From Candidatus Parabeggiatoa sp. nov. 1 (GTDB lineage: Bacteria; Pseudomonadota; Gammaproteobacteria; Beggiatoales; Beggiatoaceae), in the NCBI GenBank assembly GCA_003646175.1, contig QNER01000005.1:1-37879 (forward strand): a DNA stretch of 37,879 nucleotides. Direction: 5' to 3'. The position numbers were made by a program, and so were the translations under genes. Every line of letters starts with the position of its first letter. The stretch's first letter is position 1. Positions 1 through 36,433 of this stretch are shown here, piece after piece. The notes under the pieces are model-generated. The model was given only the letters and a program-made list of their open reading frames with translations, was not told the origin of the DNA and made no database searches.

Positions 1-429
1 CTATTCCTTTATCCTTGTAATCAAAGTATTAGGGCACGGTATTAAAAAATCAATCACTTACAGTTCATCTGGCACTTTAACTTTTCTTTATAATCCTTTG
101 ATATAATTTAATTTTAAAAAATTGATGCGATTGCCCAGTACAAAATACTATGAGACGTTGTACTATTTTTGATAAACTAATACACAATACTCATGATTTT
201 GGCACCCTTCAAAAGTATTGAACACAATTAAAAACCAAAGGTAATGGGCAGAAGGATAATGGGCTTTTTGGATCGTATTGAGTAATGATTCAAAGATTTA
301 GGAAAAATCCTAATTTCATCGCATCGAACTCAAATACTCATAAGAAACGGGCACTAATTTTTCGTTCTCAATTTGATGAGTGCCATCCCCGGTTTGTGTA
401 CTAAAGCCGGGATATCAGTCGCTCCTATC

Positions 430-1775: not shown

Positions 1776-4700
1776 TTGATATTTGACTTGACAGAAAACA
1801 AGCAAGAGACATTTCCAGATGGGCTACCGGATAATCTGCTACAAAAAGAAAGATCTGGTACGATTCGTCTGTTTTCTTTATTGCAGATTCCTCGTGATAT
1901 GCGGAGAGCTATCGTTGGTGATCTACCTAAAAGTCAAAAACACAAAAAGCTTTCAGAACGAGAAAACCTGATTTTATGCTACTCAAAGCCAGACAACCGT
2001 TTCAAGTTGTTTGAAGGTTTTATACAAAAACACAAAGACTTTGAAAAAGTAACCACTAGCGTGTTTAGCTTATTGGGCAAAAGCCACCACACTCAAAAAG
2101 GTCACAAAGCTTTTAATGTGCCTATTCTGATTCCTTCTCTGGAATTCCAGATATTAAATCGCTATATGCCTGATTTTCTTGAAGCCACTTATGATGATGA
2201 CAAACTGGCAAATACCATAACCATTTGGGAAGCAATCCGCAAAACCATTATATTTCATGATGAAAGTATCAAAAAAAGTTTAATGGTGTGGTTAAAAGCA
2301 CAAGAAGATTTAGACAATTGGTCTGCTTTAACGGAAGAACAGAAAATTAACCTTGCCAATGTCGTTTTTGCGCTGGCAACGATTGCAAATTCCTTTCCGC
2401 TTTTGTTACAGGGAATTCAACAAGTGCCAGACTTAAAGAATTATTATTCGCAACTGCTTGAAAAAAAGACAGAAGCGGTTTCTTCTTTGAAGTCTGCTAA
2501 AAAAACAGATCAAAGACAAACCACAACAACAGATTTACCCTCACTTGAGGATGCATGGCAAACACTTTGCTCAGAAATTCTTGACCAAACACAACAGGCC
2601 TTGGAAAAGGCACCGTCTCTTGAATTTATTGATACCTTTGAAGATTTTTATCAAAGGCTACAAGCATTACGTGAACGAATTCCAAACAAAGAGCAAGCAC
2701 GGAAAACTTTTAACCACAAAGTCCAAAAACTCGAACTCTATTTTGTCAAACTCAGTAAGCAAGAATTTTTTGATTGGTTGACACCAAACATCGAAAACTT
2801 ATTGGCACGCTGGCATTTATCTGCCTATAAACAGGACACTGTAGAAGGCGTTAATCGTGTCATCCAAGATATTGAACGGGTGTTTGCTGATGTTGTGCTG
2901 TTAGTTATCGCGTATCAAGGATTATGTAACAAATTCAATCAACTGACGGAGAAATTACCTGATTCATCTCTGGATGAACAACAGACTGCCGTTGTCGAAA
3001 TGGCTGATATTAACGAACAGCGGATGAAGTTCAGACAAGATATTCTCAATTATGCTTCACCGCTTAAAGAAGTTTTTGATTCAGAACAAGATTATACGAA
3101 TGACTGGAAAAATTATGCCACTTTTGAATACGTGCGAGAAAAGCCCCCTATCTTGATTGACACTTCAGCCAAAAAAAAGCTGTCTGATAACCGTTTAGTT
3201 TCTGAAGTCTTAGAAGCGGCAGCGGTGAGTGAAAAAGGGGCCGGTGACTTCAAGAGTATCACACTGTCTAAAACAATCGGGAATAAGAAATTATCGGCTA
3301 TTCTCTTAAGCAGCAGCGAAAACTTACACACCCTGAGCACATCGAACGATGTGAATAAAACCGAAAACGTCCCCGCCATCGAAGGGAATAAAACCAAAAA
3401 AGTCCATTCTAAACAGGGGGATATAACCAAAAAAGTTCCCGCCATTGAAGGGAATAAAAGCGATAAATCTCCTTCTCAACAGGGGGATAAAACCAAAAAA
3501 ATTCCCGCCATTGAAGGGAATAAAAGCGATAAATCTCCATCTCAACAGGGGGATAAAACCAAAAAAGTTCCCGCCATTGAAGGGAATAAAACCGAAAAAG
3601 TCCCCTCTTCTCAACAGGGAATGCAAGGGCTGTGTAAGGGACCCCAAGTGTCTCGTCTTAAGTTTAAAGTCAAGTTATCTAAGGAAATCTATGAAGAGGC
3701 CTATGAAGATGTAGCGGCGGAAGCTTCGCCACCCGTCACAGAGACAGCACCAACCCCTGAAAAAAAGGTGGTTGAAGTCACGCTGCCAACGACAGAAGAA
3801 CCCTTAACTGTTAATAAGGAGAAAATCACCACAGTAGTAGAACCGGCGGTTTCAACGCCACCTGTCAATAAGGCTAATAAAACCCCTTTGCCTCAATTGA
3901 CGACAAAAAACTCAAGTCGGAAAATTGCCCAATTAATTGCCATTCATCAACCGACTACCACGACTCGTTTAGAATTGCTCAATGGACTCGTATGGCGTTT
4001 AATTTACGACAATCGTGTTGGGCTTGCTTACCATATTGCCCACAGTGTTGAAACGCTTTATCCAGAAGAAAAAGCTCAGGTTTCGGCAATGATGCTACGT
4101 GTACTGGCTCTCAGTCGCTTGATACATTCTTCTGGGGGGGAAGTAATTTCAGAATTACAATCGGCTATTCCTCAAATAACTTCTGTCTTTCAAAAGAAAG
4201 CCGAAAAGAATCGTACCTGTTTAAATTTGCTAGGCTTTGCGTTAGTCCTGCGTCCGGCGTTACTCGCGCCGGTTACCACCGGTGCGACCTCTCTTTTGAA
4301 AACCTTATCTTTAAGTGAGGCCGTTAATGCGTTACATGATTTGCGTAAAGCCATTTTGGAATATACCAGCTTAGGTTTAGTACTCAGTCCCGACATTCTC
4401 AAAGGTGTTGGCGAACACGCTCGCCGGGCTGAATCTTTGCAATTGCTTAGTTCTGCATGTCAACAATGGCTAGACAAGAATCGTGAAGCTAACTTTAACT
4501 ATGTGCCCACGATCCGCGTTTGGAAACATTGGCTTAAAGAAGGTGAATATTTAGGCTTGCTGCTGACGGCGGTTATTCAAGATGATCGTGATAAAAAATC
4601 GGCAGTTGAAGAAATTCTCAACGCGTTATCGGGAGACAATGTATACCAATTGTTACATAAAACGGATCGCGAATTACGTGGTCGCAAAGCCAACGTTAAA

Positions 4701-7700
4701 CCCATTGAGTATGCCGCCAAAGAAGCACTTTGTAAGCATACACGCAGTGCGTTGCAATTTGCTCAAGACTGGCTTAACCTCATCAAAAAACCGAAAGAAG
4801 TGAAGAGTTTTATTTATGAGCAAGCCAATAACTGTCGCACTAAGGTGATTAGTTGTTTGCAACAAAGCCAAACGCAATTGCAAGCTTTCGAGCAACAACA
4901 GTCACCCAGTTTAGAAATATCGGCGAGTGTGGCTGCGGTAAGCCGTGCTTTACAAGATTTGCAAGCACTTTTTGATCCGCAAAAATCGGTGATTCCGTCT
5001 TCTATTTCGTGGCAACACGTTTTACATGCGGAATTATTACACATGCCTCAGTTACGGTTAGATGAACAATGGCAAGCAGACTTGACACACGATGCCTTCC
5101 TAACGGTTCTGATTGAATCGTTGCAAACGGAAAATATCATTGATTGGGATAAGGCTTTTAAAGTTCAGTGTGAGGTACGCGATCATTTAGCAACATTGCG
5201 TATTATTGATTTTCTAAAAGGCACTTCTTTAAAAATGCCGGAGGAGATCAACACGCTCACAGAAAAACGTCAAAACAAACTGACGGATTGTCGTAACGCA
5301 CTTGAAATGGCTATCAAAAAGACGCTGGCAAAAATTGAACGTGCCACTGTTTCTGGCTTTTTAACAGAAACGGAACGCCTGAATTTGCTCAGTACGTTAG
5401 ACAAGCGTGTGCCGGCTGAACTGACTAAATTGATTGATTTTCGACCCAGTTTTCACGCGCTCACTCAAATTGTGGAGCAACTTGATAAGACTGAAAAAGA
5501 ACAGCGGCTGGGAATTGAGGAAAGGCTGCAAAAAAGTGCCCTCCAAACCAAGCAGCCAGCCGTTTATCAACGTATCAAAGCGAGTTTAGACAAAAGCGAT
5601 TTTTTAACAACCAATGAATATATTGCGAAAGCGGAAGCGGGTAGTCCTATTCCAAAAGAGGATAGTGATGCCTTTCGTGACTTTTTTCCGCAGTTTGTTG
5701 ATGAACTGATTACCGTTTTAGGCAGAGACCGGAAAGATGGCCATCGAAATATTAAGGACATTGCCAATGGTAAGGGATTTTCTCCCCTAAACATGCAGTA
5801 TGTGCAGGGCACTCAGGCTAAAACGGCAGCCAAAATGCTGGAAGGATGGGTAGTTGCCCAGCAAAAAATTGGCAATGATCTGGTCGAAAAATTGCGAGAC
5901 CTTGTTGATGGAATGGGCTTTCAAAATAGCGAATTAATTCGTCAAGGAAGCCGTAGCATTGACAAACATAAGTGGTTTGAAATGCGTACCTACCCAATTA
6001 AGGATCGGGAAACGTGTATCATTCCTGAATTTGGTTCTATTGCACAGGGAGCCTACCGCATTTTATGCGTGTGGGAACTGGCTTCTGAAGAACAAATCCT
6101 AAATCTGACCAGTGCCAGCAATCTGCCTATTATTGTTTTCTATTTTGGGTGGCTAACGACAAACCAGCGGCGCAATTTAGCGTCTCTTTGTCGAGAAAAA
6201 CGACGCACTTTGTTGATCGTTGATGAAACCTTAATCTACTTTTTATGTGGTGAGCGTGGCTTACGTTTACCTATTTTATTTCAGTGTGCGTTTCCTTTCG
6301 CCTTTGCTAACCCGTTTATAACAACAGATAGCGTCGTGCCGGCTGAAATGTTTTTTGGACGCAAATGGCAACAGGATTCAATCATTGACAACGATGGCAC
6401 GACTCTCATTTACGGTGGGCGGCAAATGGGCAAAACCGCGTTACTGCGCGAGGTAGAACGCCAATATCACAACCCTAAAACCGGCGTTATTGTCTTATGG
6501 ATTGATCTAAAAGCAGAAGAGATTGGCATTAGTCGTCCACCGGCAGAAATTTGGTCAGTCATTGCCAATGTGCTAGGGCCGGAAGACATTGTCCGTCCAC
6601 ACGCTCATCAACCTGAAACGATGAGCAAGCAAATACAAGACTGGCTCACCCTCAATCCACAAAGACGTATTTTGTTACTGTTGGATGAAGCTGATGGTTT
6701 TCTGTATCAAGAAGCAACCACCGATAACAAAACCAATAGTGGTTTTCAAACCGTCACCCATCTTAAAAAGATGATGGAAACCACTCATGGCCGCTTTAAA
6801 GTGGTTTTTGCCGGTTCGCATCATGTTCAACGGATTGCTAGGGATATCAATACGCCTCTCGCGCATTTAGGTACCCCTATTTGTATCGGCCCCCTGTTAG
6901 GCAAAGGCGAAGAACAACAAGCTATCAAATTGATTACCTTACCTTTTTTCATGTTAGGTTATCGCTTTGTTTCCCCTGATTTGCCTAATCGTATTTTGGG
7001 TTTGACCAATTATTACCCTAGCTTAATTCAGTTATTCTGTTGGCATCTGTTGGAACAGTTGACTGTTCAAAATAATGTCTCTTTTGAGGCTAAAGAAAGT
7101 CCGCCTTATATCATTCAAGCGCATCATATTGAGGAGACTTACCAACGCCAAGAATTACGCCAAGCCATGATTGCGCATTTTGAACTCACACTAGCACTGG
7201 ACCCACGTTACCGTGTTATCGCGTTATTGATTGCGTTGGAAAGTGTGGAAAGACGACAACGTGGGCTGTTCACGGAAGGTTTTGAAGTGGCGTGGGTCAG
7301 AAAAGAAGCTCTCTCATTATGGGAAAAAGGCTTTAAAGACAAGAGCTATGAAGCTTTTCGCACCGTTTTGGATGAAATGATTGGTTTAGGTGTCTTAAGA
7401 AAAGTCGGTGCTTTTTATGAGTTACGAAGTCCCAATGTGATTAATCTCTTAGGCACTCAACATGAAATAGAAGAAGCGTTGCTGGATGTGGTAGAAAAAC
7501 ACCCCCCTTTAGTGTATAAAGCGGGCTCCTTTAGACGTGCTTTGCCAAAGGATATTTGGTTACGCAGTCCTCTGACAGGGCAACAAGAGTCAGAGTTACT
7601 CGCACCTCAAAACGGGGTTGCTGTGTTATTTGGCGCACCTATCGCCGACTTATCTGATGTTGAGCCCTTTCTTAACAGTGCTTGCCATTCAGGTTTATGG

Positions 7701-8453
7701 GCGTATGAAGTGTTAGAGAGTGCGATGAGTCTAAGCGACTTTCAGAAACAATTGCAAAACGCGTTACCACACAATGAAAATATCCATTCTAAGCTGATTT
7801 CCATTTCATCATCAGTGCCATGGAATGAACAGTGGGTGTTAGAGGCAAACGAACAGGTTCAGCGCAAGCAGGGTTTAAAAATGAATTGCCGTATTCTCTT
7901 TCTGGGTGGGTGTAAAAAGGCTTGGTTGTGGGTGAATGCTGATACGACAACGCGGCGCGCACTCAACAATGTGATTCGGTATTCACTTCAGCCTTGGCGA
8001 GAAGCTGCTGTGCGCGGATGGATGAATGATGCGGGTTTTGGGCTTGATGCCCCCAACCAACATAAAAAATTTGGTCGAATCACCGGCTATTGGGGCAATT
8101 TGCTACATGAAATTGGTTCAAGAAGTAAGCACAGCCCTCACCTGTGGGAAAAACATCTTGAAGACTTAAAAACAGAATTAAATCATTCTGCAAAAAAATG
8201 GTTACAACAATTAGATTTAGTCACCGAAGCGGCAGAAGTGTTTACTGTGATGAGTAGCTACAATTATGGTGCTACCAATCAAGAATATGAACCCATCAGT
8301 ATTGAAGAACTTTCTCATCTATCAGAAAAACCTTATGATTCCGTTGAGAAAGTGATTGAGTGGGCCGACTTGCTGAGTTTTGCCAAACCAGACAAAAACA
8401 ATAGATGGATATTAGACTGGATTGTTTCTCGTCTGATTGCTCAAGATAAATAA
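1776..8453 (+). CDS. Very large STAND/AAA-like P-loop NTPase (2225 aa)
   Basis: A cytoplasmic protein with no signal peptide or clear membrane segment. Residues 1-530 are helical. Residues about 534-620 are a low-complexity linker of 22-aa repeats (PAIEGNKSDKSPSQQGDKTKK type). A long helical middle follows. The P-loop module has Walker A GGRQMGKT (K1553, T1554) and Walker B ILLLLDEAD (D1637, E1638), then FKVVFAGSHHVQR and a winged-helix-like stretch ending RSPNVINLLGT. This layout matches large AAA_16/archaeal-type STAND ATPases of cyanobacteria and actinobacteria whose role is unknown; some STAND NTPases act in anti-phage defence or signalling. The start is TTG with AGAGGA at 1762-1767; no ATG nearby fits better. 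It has no operon partner, and no nuclease or other effector domain was recognised. Confidence 0.85.
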   Translation: MIFDLTENKQETFPDGLPDNLLQKERSGTIRLFSLLQIPRDMRRAIVGDLPKSQKHKKLSERENLILCYSKPDNRFKLFEGFIQKHKDFEKVTTSVFSLLGKSHHTQKGHKAFNVPILIPSLEFQILNRYMPDFLEATYDDDKLANTITIWEAIRKTIIFHDESIKKSLMVWLKAQEDLDNWSALTEEQKINLANVVFALATIANSFPLLLQGIQQVPDLKNYYSQLLEKKTEAVSSLKSAKKTDQRQTTTTDLPSLEDAWQTLCSEILDQTQQALEKAPSLEFIDTFEDFYQRLQALRERIPNKEQARKTFNHKVQKLELYFVKLSKQEFFDWLTPNIENLLARWHLSAYKQDTVEGVNRVIQDIERVFADVVLLVIAYQGLCNKFNQLTEKLPDSSLDEQQTAVVEMADINEQRMKFRQDILNYASPLKEVFDSEQDYTNDWKNYATFEYVREKPPILIDTSAKKKLSDNRLVSEVLEAAAVSEKGAGDFKSITLSKTIGNKKLSAILLSSSENLHTLSTSNDVNKTENVPAIEGNKTKKVHSKQGDITKKVPAIEGNKSDKSPSQQGDKTKKIPAIEGNKSDKSPSQQGDKTKKVPAIEGNKTEKVPSSQQGMQGLCKGPQVSRLKFKVKLSKEIYEEAYEDVAAEASPPVTETAPTPEKKVVEVTLPTTEEPLTVNKEKITTVVEPAVSTPPVNKANKTPLPQLTTKNSSRKIAQLIAIHQPTTTTRLELLNGLVWRLIYDNRVGLAYHIAHSVETLYPEEKAQVSAMMLRVLALSRLIHSSGGEVISELQSAIPQITSVFQKKAEKNRTCLNLLGFALVLRPALLAPVTTGATSLLKTLSLSEAVNALHDLRKAILEYTSLGLVLSPDILKGVGEHARRAESLQLLSSACQQWLDKNREANFNYVPTIRVWKHWLKEGEYLGLLLTAVIQDDRDKKSAVEEILNALSGDNVYQLLHKTDRELRGRKANVKPIEYAAKEALCKHTRSALQFAQDWLNLIKKPKEVKSFIYEQANNCRTKVISCLQQSQTQLQAFEQQQSPSLEISASVAAVSRALQDLQALFDPQKSVIPSSISWQHVLHAELLHMPQLRLDEQWQADLTHDAFLTVLIESLQTENIIDWDKAFKVQCEVRDHLATLRIIDFLKGTSLKMPEEINTLTEKRQNKLTDCRNALEMAIKKTLAKIERATVSGFLTETERLNLLSTLDKRVPAELTKLIDFRPSFHALTQIVEQLDKTEKEQRLGIEERLQKSALQTKQPAVYQRIKASLDKSDFLTTNEYIAKAEAGSPIPKEDSDAFRDFFPQFVDELITVLGRDRKDGHRNIKDIANGKGFSPLNMQYVQGTQAKTAAKMLEGWVVAQQKIGNDLVEKLRDLVDGMGFQNSELIRQGSRSIDKHKWFEMRTYPIKDRETCIIPEFGSIAQGAYRILCVWELASEEQILNLTSASNLPIIVFYFGWLTTNQRRNLASLCREKRRTLLIVDETLIYFLCGERGLRLPILFQCAFPFAFANPFITTDSVVPAEMFFGRKWQQDSIIDNDGTTLIYGGRQMGKTALLREVERQYHNPKTGVIVLWIDLKAEEIGISRPPAEIWSVIANVLGPEDIVRPHAHQPETMSKQIQDWLTLNPQRRILLLLDEADGFLYQEATTDNKTNSGFQTVTHLKKMMETTHGRFKVVFAGSHHVQRIARDINTPLAHLGTPICIGPLLGKGEEQQAIKLITLPFFMLGYRFVSPDLPNRILGLTNYYPSLIQLFCWHLLEQLTVQNNVSFEAKESPPYIIQAHHIEETYQRQELRQAMIAHFELTLALDPRYRVIALLIALESVERRQRGLFTEGFEVAWVRKEALSLWEKGFKDKSYEAFRTVLDEMIGLGVLRKVGAFYELRSPNVINLLGTQHEIEEALLDVVEKHPPLVYKAGSFRRALPKDIWLRSPLTGQQESELLAPQNGVAVLFGAPIADLSDVEPFLNSACHSGLWAYEVLESAMSLSDFQKQLQNALPHNENIHSKLISISSSVPWNEQWVLEANEQVQRKQGLKMNCRILFLGGCKKAWLWVNADTTTRRALNNVIRYSLQPWREAAVRGWMNDAGFGLDAPNQHKKFGRITGYWGNLLHEIGSRSKHSPHLWEKHLEDLKTELNHSAKKWLQQLDLVTEAAEVFTVMSSYNYGATNQEYEPISIEELSHLSEKPYDSVEKVIEWADLLSFAKPDKNNRWILDWIVSRLIAQDK
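3375..3638 (+). repeat. Intragenic 66-bp tandem repeat (22 aa)
   Basis: GCCATTGAAG-type anchors recur at 3375, 3441, 3507 and 3573, exactly 66 bp apart, so the reading frame is kept. Each unit encodes about 22 residues ending in QQGDKTKK-like sequence. The arms CCCGCCATTGAAGGGA and CTTCTCAACAGGGGGAT resemble intergenic hairpin repeats, so the linker may have grown from an inserted repeat. Adjacent copies are nearly identical, implying recent expansion or homogenisation. Confidence 0.85.
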
Positions 8454-32080: not shown

Positions 32081-32995
32081 CTAATTATTGCCCCTACAAG
32101 TCATTGGCATGATATAAGCCTCACGCACAAAGTGTTTGACGGCCTTTTCCTTAGCCAAGGCTTGTTGTTTATTATCAAAGGCTCCCATCATCACAACAAT
32201 TAAGCCCCCTGTCAAACCATCACAAAATTCGCTGTCTGTCACAATCACATTATTGTCATTTCTTCTAAGCCGTTTGCTACGTTTATTGGCTAACTGATAA
32301 CCATTGTGAGTTTGAGGGTAAATACCCAAAATGACATACCATTCTTTGGCTGAATTCGTTCCTGAACCCCTCACTGTTGCTTGCTGAACATAAGCATCAG
32401 GCACTATTTTTAAAACCACACCCAGTTCGGCCCAATTTTGGGCATCAATTTGATTAAAGGGCCCTGTCATCACAATATATAAGCCCTTTGTAAAACCAGT
32501 GTAAAAATCGCTTTCTCCAACAATGAAATAATCCTGATTCAAAATGTTGTTGGCTCTGAATTGGTTCCTGAGCATAAGGGCAGCATTTAGACCTCTTTGA
32601 GTCTGTAAAAAACTGCCCAAAATAACATACCAAGTCTGCGCTTGATGTTCGTGTTCAGGTATGCTTGGTTTTTGTTCTGAACATTGCCAGCCCCATTTAT
32701 CCTCCAACTTATGGTGGATAAAATCATTCATTTTCCGCTCACAATAACCCGCTTTATTTTCAGCAGACCACAATATTTCACTATGGTCCGGCATTTCCGT
32801 GGTTTTTTCATATATGACTCGGCACGGCACATAGGCGCCCACAAATAAATAGTCCAGCGTCAAAATCCGTCTTTTGTCTTGGTTTGAGCATATAACGACG
32901 CTATCTTCTGGCCCCGTGTCGATGGCTACCGCAATTCTCAAGTCACCTAAAACAGTGATAGCGATTATTAAGAGGCTGATAAGTGCTTTCTTCAT
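32081..32995 (-). CDS. Exported protein with two SPOR-like repeats
   Basis: 304 aa. ATG 32995 follows AAGGAGAA (33001-33009 on the plus strand); an in-frame extension to 33112 is rejected because it lacks a site. A signal peptide (MKKALISLLIIAITVLG, cleavage near AVA) is followed by a Cys-containing domain (VICSNQ, VPCRVIYE, YCERKMNDF, WGWQCSE) and two SPOR-like repeats opening QTWYVILGSFLQT and KEWYVILGIYPQT, each closing with a GPF/GAF...A pattern and AYV or AYI. SPOR domains bind denuded peptidoglycan at division sites; whether these do is untested. Its paralogue is encoded about 0.9 kb upstream on the same strand. Confidence 0.8.
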   Translation of the reverse strand: MKKALISLLIIAITVLGDLRIAVAIDTGPEDSVVICSNQDKRRILTLDYLFVGAYVPCRVIYEKTTEMPDHSEILWSAENKAGYCERKMNDFIHHKLEDKWGWQCSEQKPSIPEHEHQAQTWYVILGSFLQTQRGLNAALMLRNQFRANNILNQDYFIVGESDFYTGFTKGLYIVMTGPFNQIDAQNWAELGVVLKIVPDAYVQQATVRGSGTNSAKEWYVILGIYPQTHNGYQLANKRSKRLRRNDNNVIVTDSEFCDGLTGGLIVVMMGAFDNKQQALAKEKAVKHFVREAYIMPMTCRGNN

Positions 32996-33155
32996 CCAAA
33001 TTCTCCTTATTGATTGTTGCAAAAAAGCCAGCTTTATCACTTTATTAGTTGATAACAATATTATTGATAGTGAAAGTAAAATGATTTGTTGTATCAAAAG
33101 GAAGTTTGTCAAAAAGTGAGCAGCTATCTATCTGTTGTTAAGTGTTGTAACCGTG

Positions 33156-33928: not shown

Positions 33929-34579
33929 TCATAATCCCTTCTTTGGCACAATTTGCTGAACAGAAGCATTAGACACAATTTCTCGGACAGCATCCGTCTT
34001 GGCCCAATTTTCGGCATCGATTTGATTTTGAAAAGGCCCTTTCATCACAACATATAGGCCATCTGTCAACTCAGGATAAAAATCGCTTTCTCCAACTGAA
34101 AAATCATCCTGAGTCCAAATGTCGGATCTGAATTGGTCTCTGAGCTGAAGGCCAGAATTTAGGCCTTCTTGAGTTTGCGGAAAGCCGCCCAAAATGACAT
34201 ACCAGGTTTTAACTTGATCTCGACGTTCAGGTATCTGCCAAACCATGCTTTGTTCACGAGATGAACATTGCCAACCCCATTTCCCCTCCAACTTCTTGTG
34301 GATAAAGTCATCCATTTTCTGCTCGCAATAACCGACTTTATTTTCAGCGGACCACAAGATTTTACTGAAGCCCGGCTTTTCCGTAGGTTTTTCATAAATG
34401 ACTCGGCACGGCACACGGTTACCTGGGACCAGATAGTCCAATGTCACAATCCGTCTGTTGTCTTGGTTTGAGCATATAACCACACTGTCTTCTAGCCCAG
34501 TGTCGGTGGCTACCGCAATTTGGTCATCACCTAAAACGGCGATAACTATCACCAAGAGGCTGATAAGTGCTTTCTTCAT
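33929..34579 (-). CDS. Exported SPOR-like protein, shortened paralogue
   Basis: 216 aa, clearly homologous to the protein at 32081-32995: the same signal peptide (MKKALISLLVIVIAVLG), Cys-containing domain and first SPOR-like repeat (KTWYVILGGFPQT). The frame stops after VQQIVPKKGL. The DNA beyond the stop (about 33929 down to 33885) still aligns with the second repeat of the paralogue (AATTCAGCCAAAGAATGG and ATGTCATTTTGG in that gene), but with frame breaks, so the second repeat has been lost by decay. ATG 34579 follows AAGGAGAATC. Whether the shortened protein works is unknown. Confidence 0.8.
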   Translation of the reverse strand: MKKALISLLVIVIAVLGDDQIAVATDTGLEDSVVICSNQDNRRIVTLDYLVPGNRVPCRVIYEKPTEKPGFSKILWSAENKVGYCEQKMDDFIHKKLEGKWGWQCSSREQSMVWQIPERRDQVKTWYVILGGFPQTQEGLNSGLQLRDQFRSDIWTQDDFSVGESDFYPELTDGLYVVMKGPFQNQIDAENWAKTDAVREIVSNASVQQIVPKKGL

Positions 34580-35047: not shown

Positions 35048-36433
35048 TTATTGGGCCTCATTTCTACAATGTTGTGGTAAATACTTATTATCCACACCAT
35101 TGGGATGGCCCGAACTACACTTCCAATGACCTGTGGCTGGATTATAAGTCAGCCTGATGGTTTGTTCACCTATTGGGGAATGTTCTTTTCCAGACAGGGT
35201 TGCTTGGAAATAGAGCTGTTCGGGGTTTGAGACGATCTTCTCCACATACTTACTCGACGTTTTCCCCTTTATATCCGCGACAGATGGCGGAAATTTTTCC
35301 GTAAAGGAAAAATATTGTTCTGTCGGTGTCTTAAGTGCCTCTATAAAGTTAACGGCTTGCACAGTTTGGTAATGGTTTACATAATCTGTATGGGAATATT
35401 TTCCCAAATCAGAAGGTGAAATACCCATAGAAGCTATCACAACTATCACTCCTATAATGGCCGCAATAGGAAGCAACATAAGCATAATAATAGCGGTGAG
35501 TATTGCACCGGGTGAGCGATGTGCAGAACCGCCGGGAATGGCCTCTATCACAGTCGTATCGGCAATCAAATCATGCAGACAACGTCGAGACTTTTGGAAA
35601 ATGAATAGGGGATCGATTAAAACCACAGCGGATTTCCACCACTCTGGACCGATCCCTGCGATTATTTGTATGACGAAATAACGCAATCCGACAATCCGTA
35701 ATAATCCGGCCCGACTGCCATCGGTACGGACAATCTTAATGTCAAGCAAACGTTTGCCAATGGTTTGCCCATTCTGGTACAGCAATGTCCAGTTGATCGC
35801 GGTAAGAGCAATCCAACCTAAAACAACAAAACCCAATGGCCACACCATCGTTAACATCGCCTCCTCACTGCCCTTTCCACCATCCGCCAAAACAGAGGTA
35901 TCAACAAAGAAAGGCATTATCAAAATTGCTAAAAAAGGTAGGGATAAGAAAATGAGTACATCCACTAAGTGAGCCACCAAACGTGTATCGCGTCTTGCCA
36001 ATTCAAAGACATTGTCATTGGTGAGTCCTGTTGTCGGTGCCACAAAGGGTTGGTAAGGCGAAACGTTAGGCCCTTGAGGGTTGATTTGGGGTTGCCCTGC
36101 GGATTTCACGCCCGAATCATAAGCTTTGCGCTTTTCATGATCAGACAAAACCTGAACCGCCTCAGTCATTTCACTCATCTTCGCTGGGATTGCTTGAGCA
36201 ATTTCCGTATCCGTGGCATTTTGGTTAACGCCTAGAACTTCATAATAGGTGTTTGGCTTCCTAACCATTTTTGAGGGTTGGAGCGATGCTTGTGTCAGTT
36301 CGGCCCCAAGAGTTTTGGGCTTATCCGCCTCAACCAAACTTATGACGCTCCCATTGGAACCATTTCCCTTTGGTGGCACAATTTCTTGAAATTCCACCTG
36401 ATTAGTGTTTTGGTTAATAGCGTCAATTTTCAT
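35048..36433 (-). CDS. J-like / RDD membrane / type IV pilin-like fusion protein
   Basis: 461 aa with three parts. Residues 62-106 (YYEVLGVNQNATDTEIAQAI, then EAVQVLSDHEKRKAYD) match both ends of a DnaJ J-domain, but the middle, including the HPD motif needed to stimulate Hsp70, is absent. Residues about 146-298 are an RDD domain: ELARRDTRLVAHLVDVLIF, TIGKRLLDIKIVRTDGSRAG and CLHDLIADTTVIEA, with membrane helices near 153-174 and 197-216. Another helix (310-335) leads into a periplasmic domain, 340-456, that looks like a type IV pilin head: FPPSVADIKGKTSSKYVEKI, GHWKCSSG (C439), YLPQHC (C456). ATG 36433 has a weak AGGGA. It is monocistronic. The function is unknown; RDD proteins are often putative transporters. 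Confidence 0.85.
   Translation of the reverse strand: MKIDAINQNTNQVEFQEIVPPKGNGSNGSVISLVEADKPKTLGAELTQASLQPSKMVRKPNTYYEVLGVNQNATDTEIAQAIPAKMSEMTEAVQVLSDHEKRKAYDSGVKSAGQPQINPQGPNVSPYQPFVAPTTGLTNDNVFELARRDTRLVAHLVDVLIFLSLPFLAILIMPFFVDTSVLADGGKGSEEAMLTMVWPLGFVVLGWIALTAINWTLLYQNGQTIGKRLLDIKIVRTDGSRAGLLRIVGLRYFVIQIIAGIGPEWWKSAVVLIDPLFIFQKSRRCLHDLIADTTVIEAIPGGSAHRSPGAILTAIIMLMLLPIAAIIGVIVVIASMGISPSDLGKYSHTDYVNHYQTVQAVNFIEALKTPTEQYFSFTEKFPPSVADIKGKTSSKYVEKIVSNPEQLYFQATLSGKEHSPIGEQTIRLTYNPATGHWKCSSGHPNGVDNKYLPQHCRNEAQ

Follow-up and report, generated by a model that had tools for sequence, protein, structure and literature searches.

The closest described relative of the N-terminal unit analyzed here, which we call mini-J, is the canonical J-domain of DnaJ/Hsp40 proteins (PF00226). 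Both contain the helix I motif, the start of helix II, the end of helix III, and helix IV with a (K/R)R..YD motif. Mini-J reaches a significant Pfam score with the J-domain model, and in predicted structures the J fold is reproduced by two mini-J units jointly. In contrast to the canonical domain, mini-J misses 17 residues (the HPD loop with the adjoining ends of helix II and helix III) and is a 48-aa unit with a continuous helix that is often found in pairs. Pam16, another relative, retains the II–III loop and the hairpin and pairs via the outside of its fold, whereas in mini-J the loop itself is missing and a swap is predicted. By description, Pam16/Tim16-type J-like domains resemble mini-J in being J-related, in having no HPD motif, and in J-type pairing at a membrane (PMC3806816, PMC12953747).

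The other two parts of the 461-aa protein presented here also have well-described counterparts. Among RDD proteins (PF06271), SppI of B. subtilis is a membrane protein that inhibits the protease SppA via the SppI C-terminal domain (PMC7568657), and a Halobacillus RDD protein has been reported as an antiporter (PMC5996927). The 461-aa protein shares with this family the membrane core with one Arg and two Asp residues and the GQTIGKR and CLHDLIADT stretches, but adds a mini-J unit, predicted to be cytosolic, as well as one more membrane helix that bears a pilin head. With type IVa pilins (PF00114; PilE, PilA) it shares the head fold, the C-terminal Cys pair, and a membrane helix that runs into the head. 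Unlike them, it has no leader, no cleavage site, and no Glu5, and its head sits behind another membrane domain. The fused heads as a set carry a P-N-G loop and are separated by score from ordinary pilins of this family.

Domain organization of the 461-aa protein

Candidatus Parabeggiatoa belongs to the family of Albibeggiatoa and Thiomargarita (below, the family). The stretch of DNA that was analyzed (the window; 37 879 nucleotides from Ca. Parabeggiatoa sp. nov. 1) is one entire contig (C5) of an 8.8-Mb genome. At 35048–36433 its minus strand contains an ATG-initiated open reading frame of 461 aa. The encoded protein matches the DnaJ, RDD, and type IV pilin models, all above Pfam gathering scores, in agreement with the three domains initially recognized from motifs. 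The DnaJ match (PF00226, E 4e-8) falls into two stretches, one in which residues 85–106 align with model positions 42–63 and one at the model start, and the HPD middle is missing. The RDD match (PF06271) covers residues 149–291 (E 2.1e-12, 47.9 bits versus a cut-off of 24.1), and the pilin match (PF00114) covers residues 356–457 (E 4.9e-12, 47.2 bits versus a cut-off of 22). The features are arranged as follows.

35048..36433, minus strand: whole gene, encoding mini-J, RDD, membrane helix, and pilin head (open reading frame and Pfam, 461 aa)
36260..36433, minus strand: residues 1–58, low-confidence N-terminal tail (pLDDT 36–48; 1.2 bits to the A1 model)
36110..36250, minus strand: residues 62–108, mini-J with helix I, fused helix II/III, and helix IV, no HPD loop (Pfam; 83.5 bits, model positions 1–47 of 48; AlphaFold2)
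35561..35989, minus strand: residues 149–291, RDD membrane domain (PF06271, E 2.1e-12; R151, D158, and D288 invariant in four orthologs)
35429..35518, minus strand: residues 306–335, membrane helix at the position of pilin α1N, no prepilin leader and no Glu5 (hydropathy 3.2; helix 308–335 in the AlphaFold2 model)
35060..35392, minus strand: residues 348–458, type IVa pilin head with Cys439 and Cys456, predicted periplasmic (PF00114; PilE 4v1j; pLDDT ~97)

The invariance of R151, D158, and D288 across the four orthologs means that the conserved Arg and the two Asp residues of the RDD family are present, which bears out, together with the PF06271 score, the hallmark motifs noted earlier; the RDD part is of the ordinary type. 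The J-domain halves that had been placed at residues 62–106 were found there, but the unit extends from residue 62 to 108, and residues 1–58 do not form a convincing second unit. These residues were considered as a first mini-J copy and rejected: a score of 40 bits came from a model trained on the same residues, and a clean model gave 1.2 bits. The corresponding tail of the ortholog L004 scores 9.5 bits with the mini-J A1 model. Residues 1–58 are a possible eroded first copy, unsupported in the 461-aa protein.

Elsewhere in the window, the adjoining region of the minus strand (32081–33112 and 33929–34579) encodes two paralogous secreted proteins, the longer of which is weakly SPOR-domain-like. 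On the plus strand, positions 1776–8453 contain an open reading frame of 2225 aa in which AAA_22 is the sole recognized domain.

Mini-J is a module of fixed size

The J parts of the family align as a gap-free 48-residue unit. In 42 of 43 mini-J units measured, the spacing between the Y-Y motif and the R..Y-D motif is 39 residues (40 in the remaining one), compared with 56–57 in the canonical J-domains of the same set; mini-J is ~17 residues shorter, having lost the last part of helix II, the HPD loop, and the first part of helix III. In the 461-aa protein the J halves are linked by a few residues (..QAIPAKMSEM..), the HPD tripeptide is missing, and the single mini-J unit scores 83.5 bits. A longer class of units (L076–L078) has a spacing of 50, that is 39 plus 11 residues, or three helical turns. 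Such a step of 11 is expected if helices II and III are one helix obliged to keep phase. Canonical-length J-domains with HPS and APQ replacing HPD also occur in the family (L083 and L079).

Full-length matches, defined as at least 41 of 48 positions at ~45 bits or more, were found in half of the family genomes (21 of 42) and in about 36 proteins. In 365 other genomes of the class the same search returned only split halves of ordinary DnaJ below 39 bits, and in 397 other genomes of the phylum there was no match at E 1e-9; the two samples overlap, and the scans apply a first filter, so this absence is not absolute. The carriers include RDD, TM2, AsmA, WD40, DUF805, DUF3817, and thioredoxin proteins. 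Mini-J is nearly always N-terminal in them and precedes a membrane segment; it is often paired, and many proteins contain a single unit. Mini-J is a distinct module of fixed size and not the product of decay of a J-domain. The original prediction of a J-domain shell was correct as to the loss of the HPD loop, but the unit is not the remnant of a single J-domain: it is a fixed 48-aa module that is dispersed across the family and often paired.

Predicted structure of mini-J pairs

In the AlphaFold2 model of the 461-aa protein, mini-J consists of helices 63–67, 75–97, and 99–111. The mini-J pair of the relative L037 (116 residues) was modelled with pLDDT of 90.5 and pTM of 0.79; the AlphaFold2 models rest on shallow alignments (22 and 33 rows). 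Each unit of the pair comprises a short helix, a continuous helix (residues 16–38 and 77–98), and a last helix. The top Foldseek and VIA matches of the pair were J-domains, covering residues from ~1 to 105–116 of the model and matching 63–78 residues of one canonical J. For example, 2och aligned over 64 of 66 residues at 1.3 Å across model positions 1..111, and 5nro_B over 63 of 63 residues at 2.1 Å. Z values of these matches are near 9, which is moderate for a helical domain, yet the matches are coherent, and the J reading of the pair is also backed by sequence ancestry, which is independent of the Z value.

A single mini-J is modelled with a continuous helix, and the four-helix J fold, with its antiparallel II–III hairpin, is matched only across the two units of L037. 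Since one unit has 48 residues and the matches span 63–78, a canonical J requires the N-terminal half of copy 1 and the C-terminal half of copy 2. The aligned lengths and ranges imply a predicted three-dimensional domain swap in which the deleted HPD loop is the hinge. Incomplete pairs in the family are informative in this respect. As a rule, they miss the C-terminal half of copy 1 or the N-terminal half of copy 2: in L055, L063, L066, L067, and L071, copy 2 retains model positions 19–48, and in L064, L070, and L072, copy 1 retains positions 3–33, with constant overall spacings of 65 and 73. L061 is the exception, in which helix IV of copy 2 is lost. The parts lost in broken pairs are those that the composite fold does not need, which supports the swap.

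The presence of mini-J on very different membrane proteins, as would be expected of a shared docking tag, and of a single unit in many of them would also fit a monomeric, folded helical bundle that serves as an adaptor for a common cytosolic partner, with no swap and with the J likeness being ancestral. We consider such an adaptor somewhat less likely than the swap: the models show a single uninterrupted helix per unit and no J core closed within it, a canonical J can be superposed only when both units are taken together, and the units are usually paired at constant spacing.

The pilin head and its membrane helix

The head was modelled with high confidence (pLDDT about 97 over most of residues 350–458). 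A structural match of the C-terminal region to pilins, named beforehand as a test of the assignment, was found with both Foldseek and VIA-align. Among solved structures, Foldseek ranked the major pilin of N. meningitidis first (E 8e-6), and VIA-align superimposed the Neisseria PilE structure 4v1j over 114 residues (Z 13.9, 2.7 Å). In the VIA-align results for the whole-protein model, pilins and pseudopilins account for almost every one of the first 34 rows. This list contains neither a J-domain nor an RDD match, which is not evidence against either domain, as pilins fill its top. Hydropathy peaks over residues 306–334 (3.2 at residue 315), and full-length pilins align from residue 315, so that the membrane helix ahead of the head matches pilin α1N. 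In the sequence upstream of the head, GAILTAIIMLMLLPIAAIIGVIVV, there is no prepilin leader, no G-F-x-x-x-E site, and no Glu5, whereas the same scan detected a prepilin site in 20 of 25 heads encoded by short frames, nearly all of which are ordinary pilins. The C-terminal Cys pair of PF00114 is present; Cys439 and Cys456 occur in all four orthologs and are also invariant in the alignment of fused heads, and they would form a putative disulfide that closes the D-region. The two-Cys pilin-like C-terminus and the membrane helix lacking a prepilin cleavage site that were first proposed are both borne out, and the head would work like a pilin head, yet the protein is not a pilin.

This head is one among several such fusions in the family. 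Proteins that end in it include RDD, TM2 with zinc-ribbon-like cysteines, DUF945, leucine-rich repeat, PKD, and BACON proteins. The pilin-helix stretch GI(L/I)AA-IPAY is kept at the junction in L006, TM2 fusions, DUF2628 fusions, and ~700-aa fusions. With a fused-head model, all heads above 84 bits in the family sit in long fused proteins or cut frames, and ordinary pilins score about 83 bits or less; the model was trained on most of the top scorers, and the heads of G033, G031, and G029, which were left out, also land on the fused side. Outside the family, head fusions were found in L086 (~700-aa type) and L088 (DUF2628-like), so head fusion is not unique to it. Long open frames near pilins in other genomes that looked like fusions were rejected, as most were ordinary pilins with open sequence upstream.

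Several further pilin-related proteins were observed. A 1105-aa protein in L033 (4792–8109, minus strand; G020:C55) contains two mini-J units, RDD, TM2, and five tandem pilin heads, and its neighbour contains two mini-J units, RDD, and two pilin heads. A secreted type of ~700 aa, which has no Pfam name and terminates in a pilin helix followed by a head, was seen repeatedly in the family (L038, L048, L094, L095, L096, and L100) and is present in at least one unrelated genome (L086). In L097 (164–3259; G033:C223), a pilin N-terminal helix that bears Glu (TLIELMIDTAIFGILSAVAIPSY) lies within a leaderless protein of 1031 aa.

Ordinary pilins are encoded in most family genomes. Given their presence, the pilin-like fold and membrane-helix orientation of the head, and the GI(L/I)AA-IPAY stretch in the TM2, DUF2628, and ~700-aa fusions, the head could be imagined to dock at a type IV pilus or type II secretion platform, where it would prime, sense, or block assembly. 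This role is improbable for the 461-aa protein, which has neither that stretch nor Glu5; in addition, the head terminates secreted proteins (DUF945, leucine-rich repeats) that have no adjoining membrane helix, and the fused heads score apart from pilins of the same genomes.

Distribution of the architecture

When the J-RDD-head order was sought in other Beggiatoaceae, it was found in two further Ca. Parabeggiatoa species (L004, 57% identity, and L005, 48%), and a third genome of this genus (L006, 44%) encodes RDD and head without the J module. A pattern search of 84 980 species found neither this order nor RDD with head alone beyond Ca. Parabeggiatoa, the remaining matches being only RDD-type relatives; proteins with an NPYxxP stretch ahead of RDD occur in many other bacteria. 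No shared neighbour genes were found in the stretches compared around three orthologs, and none of the ortholog loci compared has a conserved neighbour that points to a pathway. Each genome has different neighbours around it, so conservation applies to the gene and not to a larger block. Immediately upstream of the Ca. Parabeggiatoa sp. nov. 2 ortholog lies a short-unit tandem repeat of ~1 kb that is open in several frames (L106, 1608–2656).

The J part is missing in the G029 ortholog, many RDD proteins of this type occur alone, and the head is found on unrelated carriers. All of this would agree with neutral domain shuffling in the large Beggiatoaceae genomes, in which case the protein would resemble an RDD transporter and its two ends would be dispensable. 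This has a very low probability, however, as J and head are retained with strict motifs in divergent species (48–57% identity) that have no common neighbours. Three other genomes of the genus encode orthologs (57, 48, and 44% identity), again in different surroundings, which indicates that the architecture is not due to chance.

The view that this domain order was undescribed is in agreement with the open-access PMC literature, in which no paper on RDD-pilin fusions was found, nor any description of HPD-deleted tandem J modules or of pilin-head modules. All the parts are variants of folds already known; what appears to be undescribed is the J module and the overall architecture.

Proposed function

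We tentatively propose that the 461-aa protein combines three re-used modules and acts as an envelope sensor or anchor in the inner membrane, with a swapped mini-J dimer and an unprocessed head, and we give this reading a probability of roughly 0.45. With the HPD loop removed, helices II and III would run on as a single helix, as in the AlphaFold2 models, and helices I–II of one unit would pack on helices III–IV of another. In two-unit proteins the swap would take place inside one chain. The 461-aa protein has one mini-J, from which we infer that it pairs with a second chain and is dimeric, the swap probably occurring between the two. Mini-J would then be a cytosolic dimeriser incapable of stimulating Hsp70. 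In the periplasm the head would serve for binding or sensing as a fixed domain closed by a disulfide, presumably neither processable by prepilin peptidase nor polymerisable, and its state may be relayed through the RDD domain, either to the dimer in the cytosol or to a partner. The topology, with mini-J in the cytosol and the head in the periplasm, is likewise predicted. Because SppI regulates an envelope protease and another RDD protein has been reported as an antiporter, the RDD core may regulate or transport. The role of envelope sensor or anchor, as first suggested, is plausible.

In evolutionary terms, deletion of the HPD hinge may have made an Hsp70-activating J-domain into a swapping dimeriser that spread in one family on the cytosolic side of numerous membrane proteins, some of which carry an ex-pilus pilin head, although we place this scenario slightly below even odds. 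Profile searches name these proteins 'DnaJ domain' and 'pilin', although they look incapable of the hallmark function of either. If the swap is true, it would be a natural hinge-loop deletion by which a universal signalling fold became a dimerisation module, and its natural variants (single, paired, and half copies, and units with 11 additional residues) would be directly comparable. Pilin heads appear to serve as general extracytoplasmic domains among giant sulfur bacteria and related organisms.
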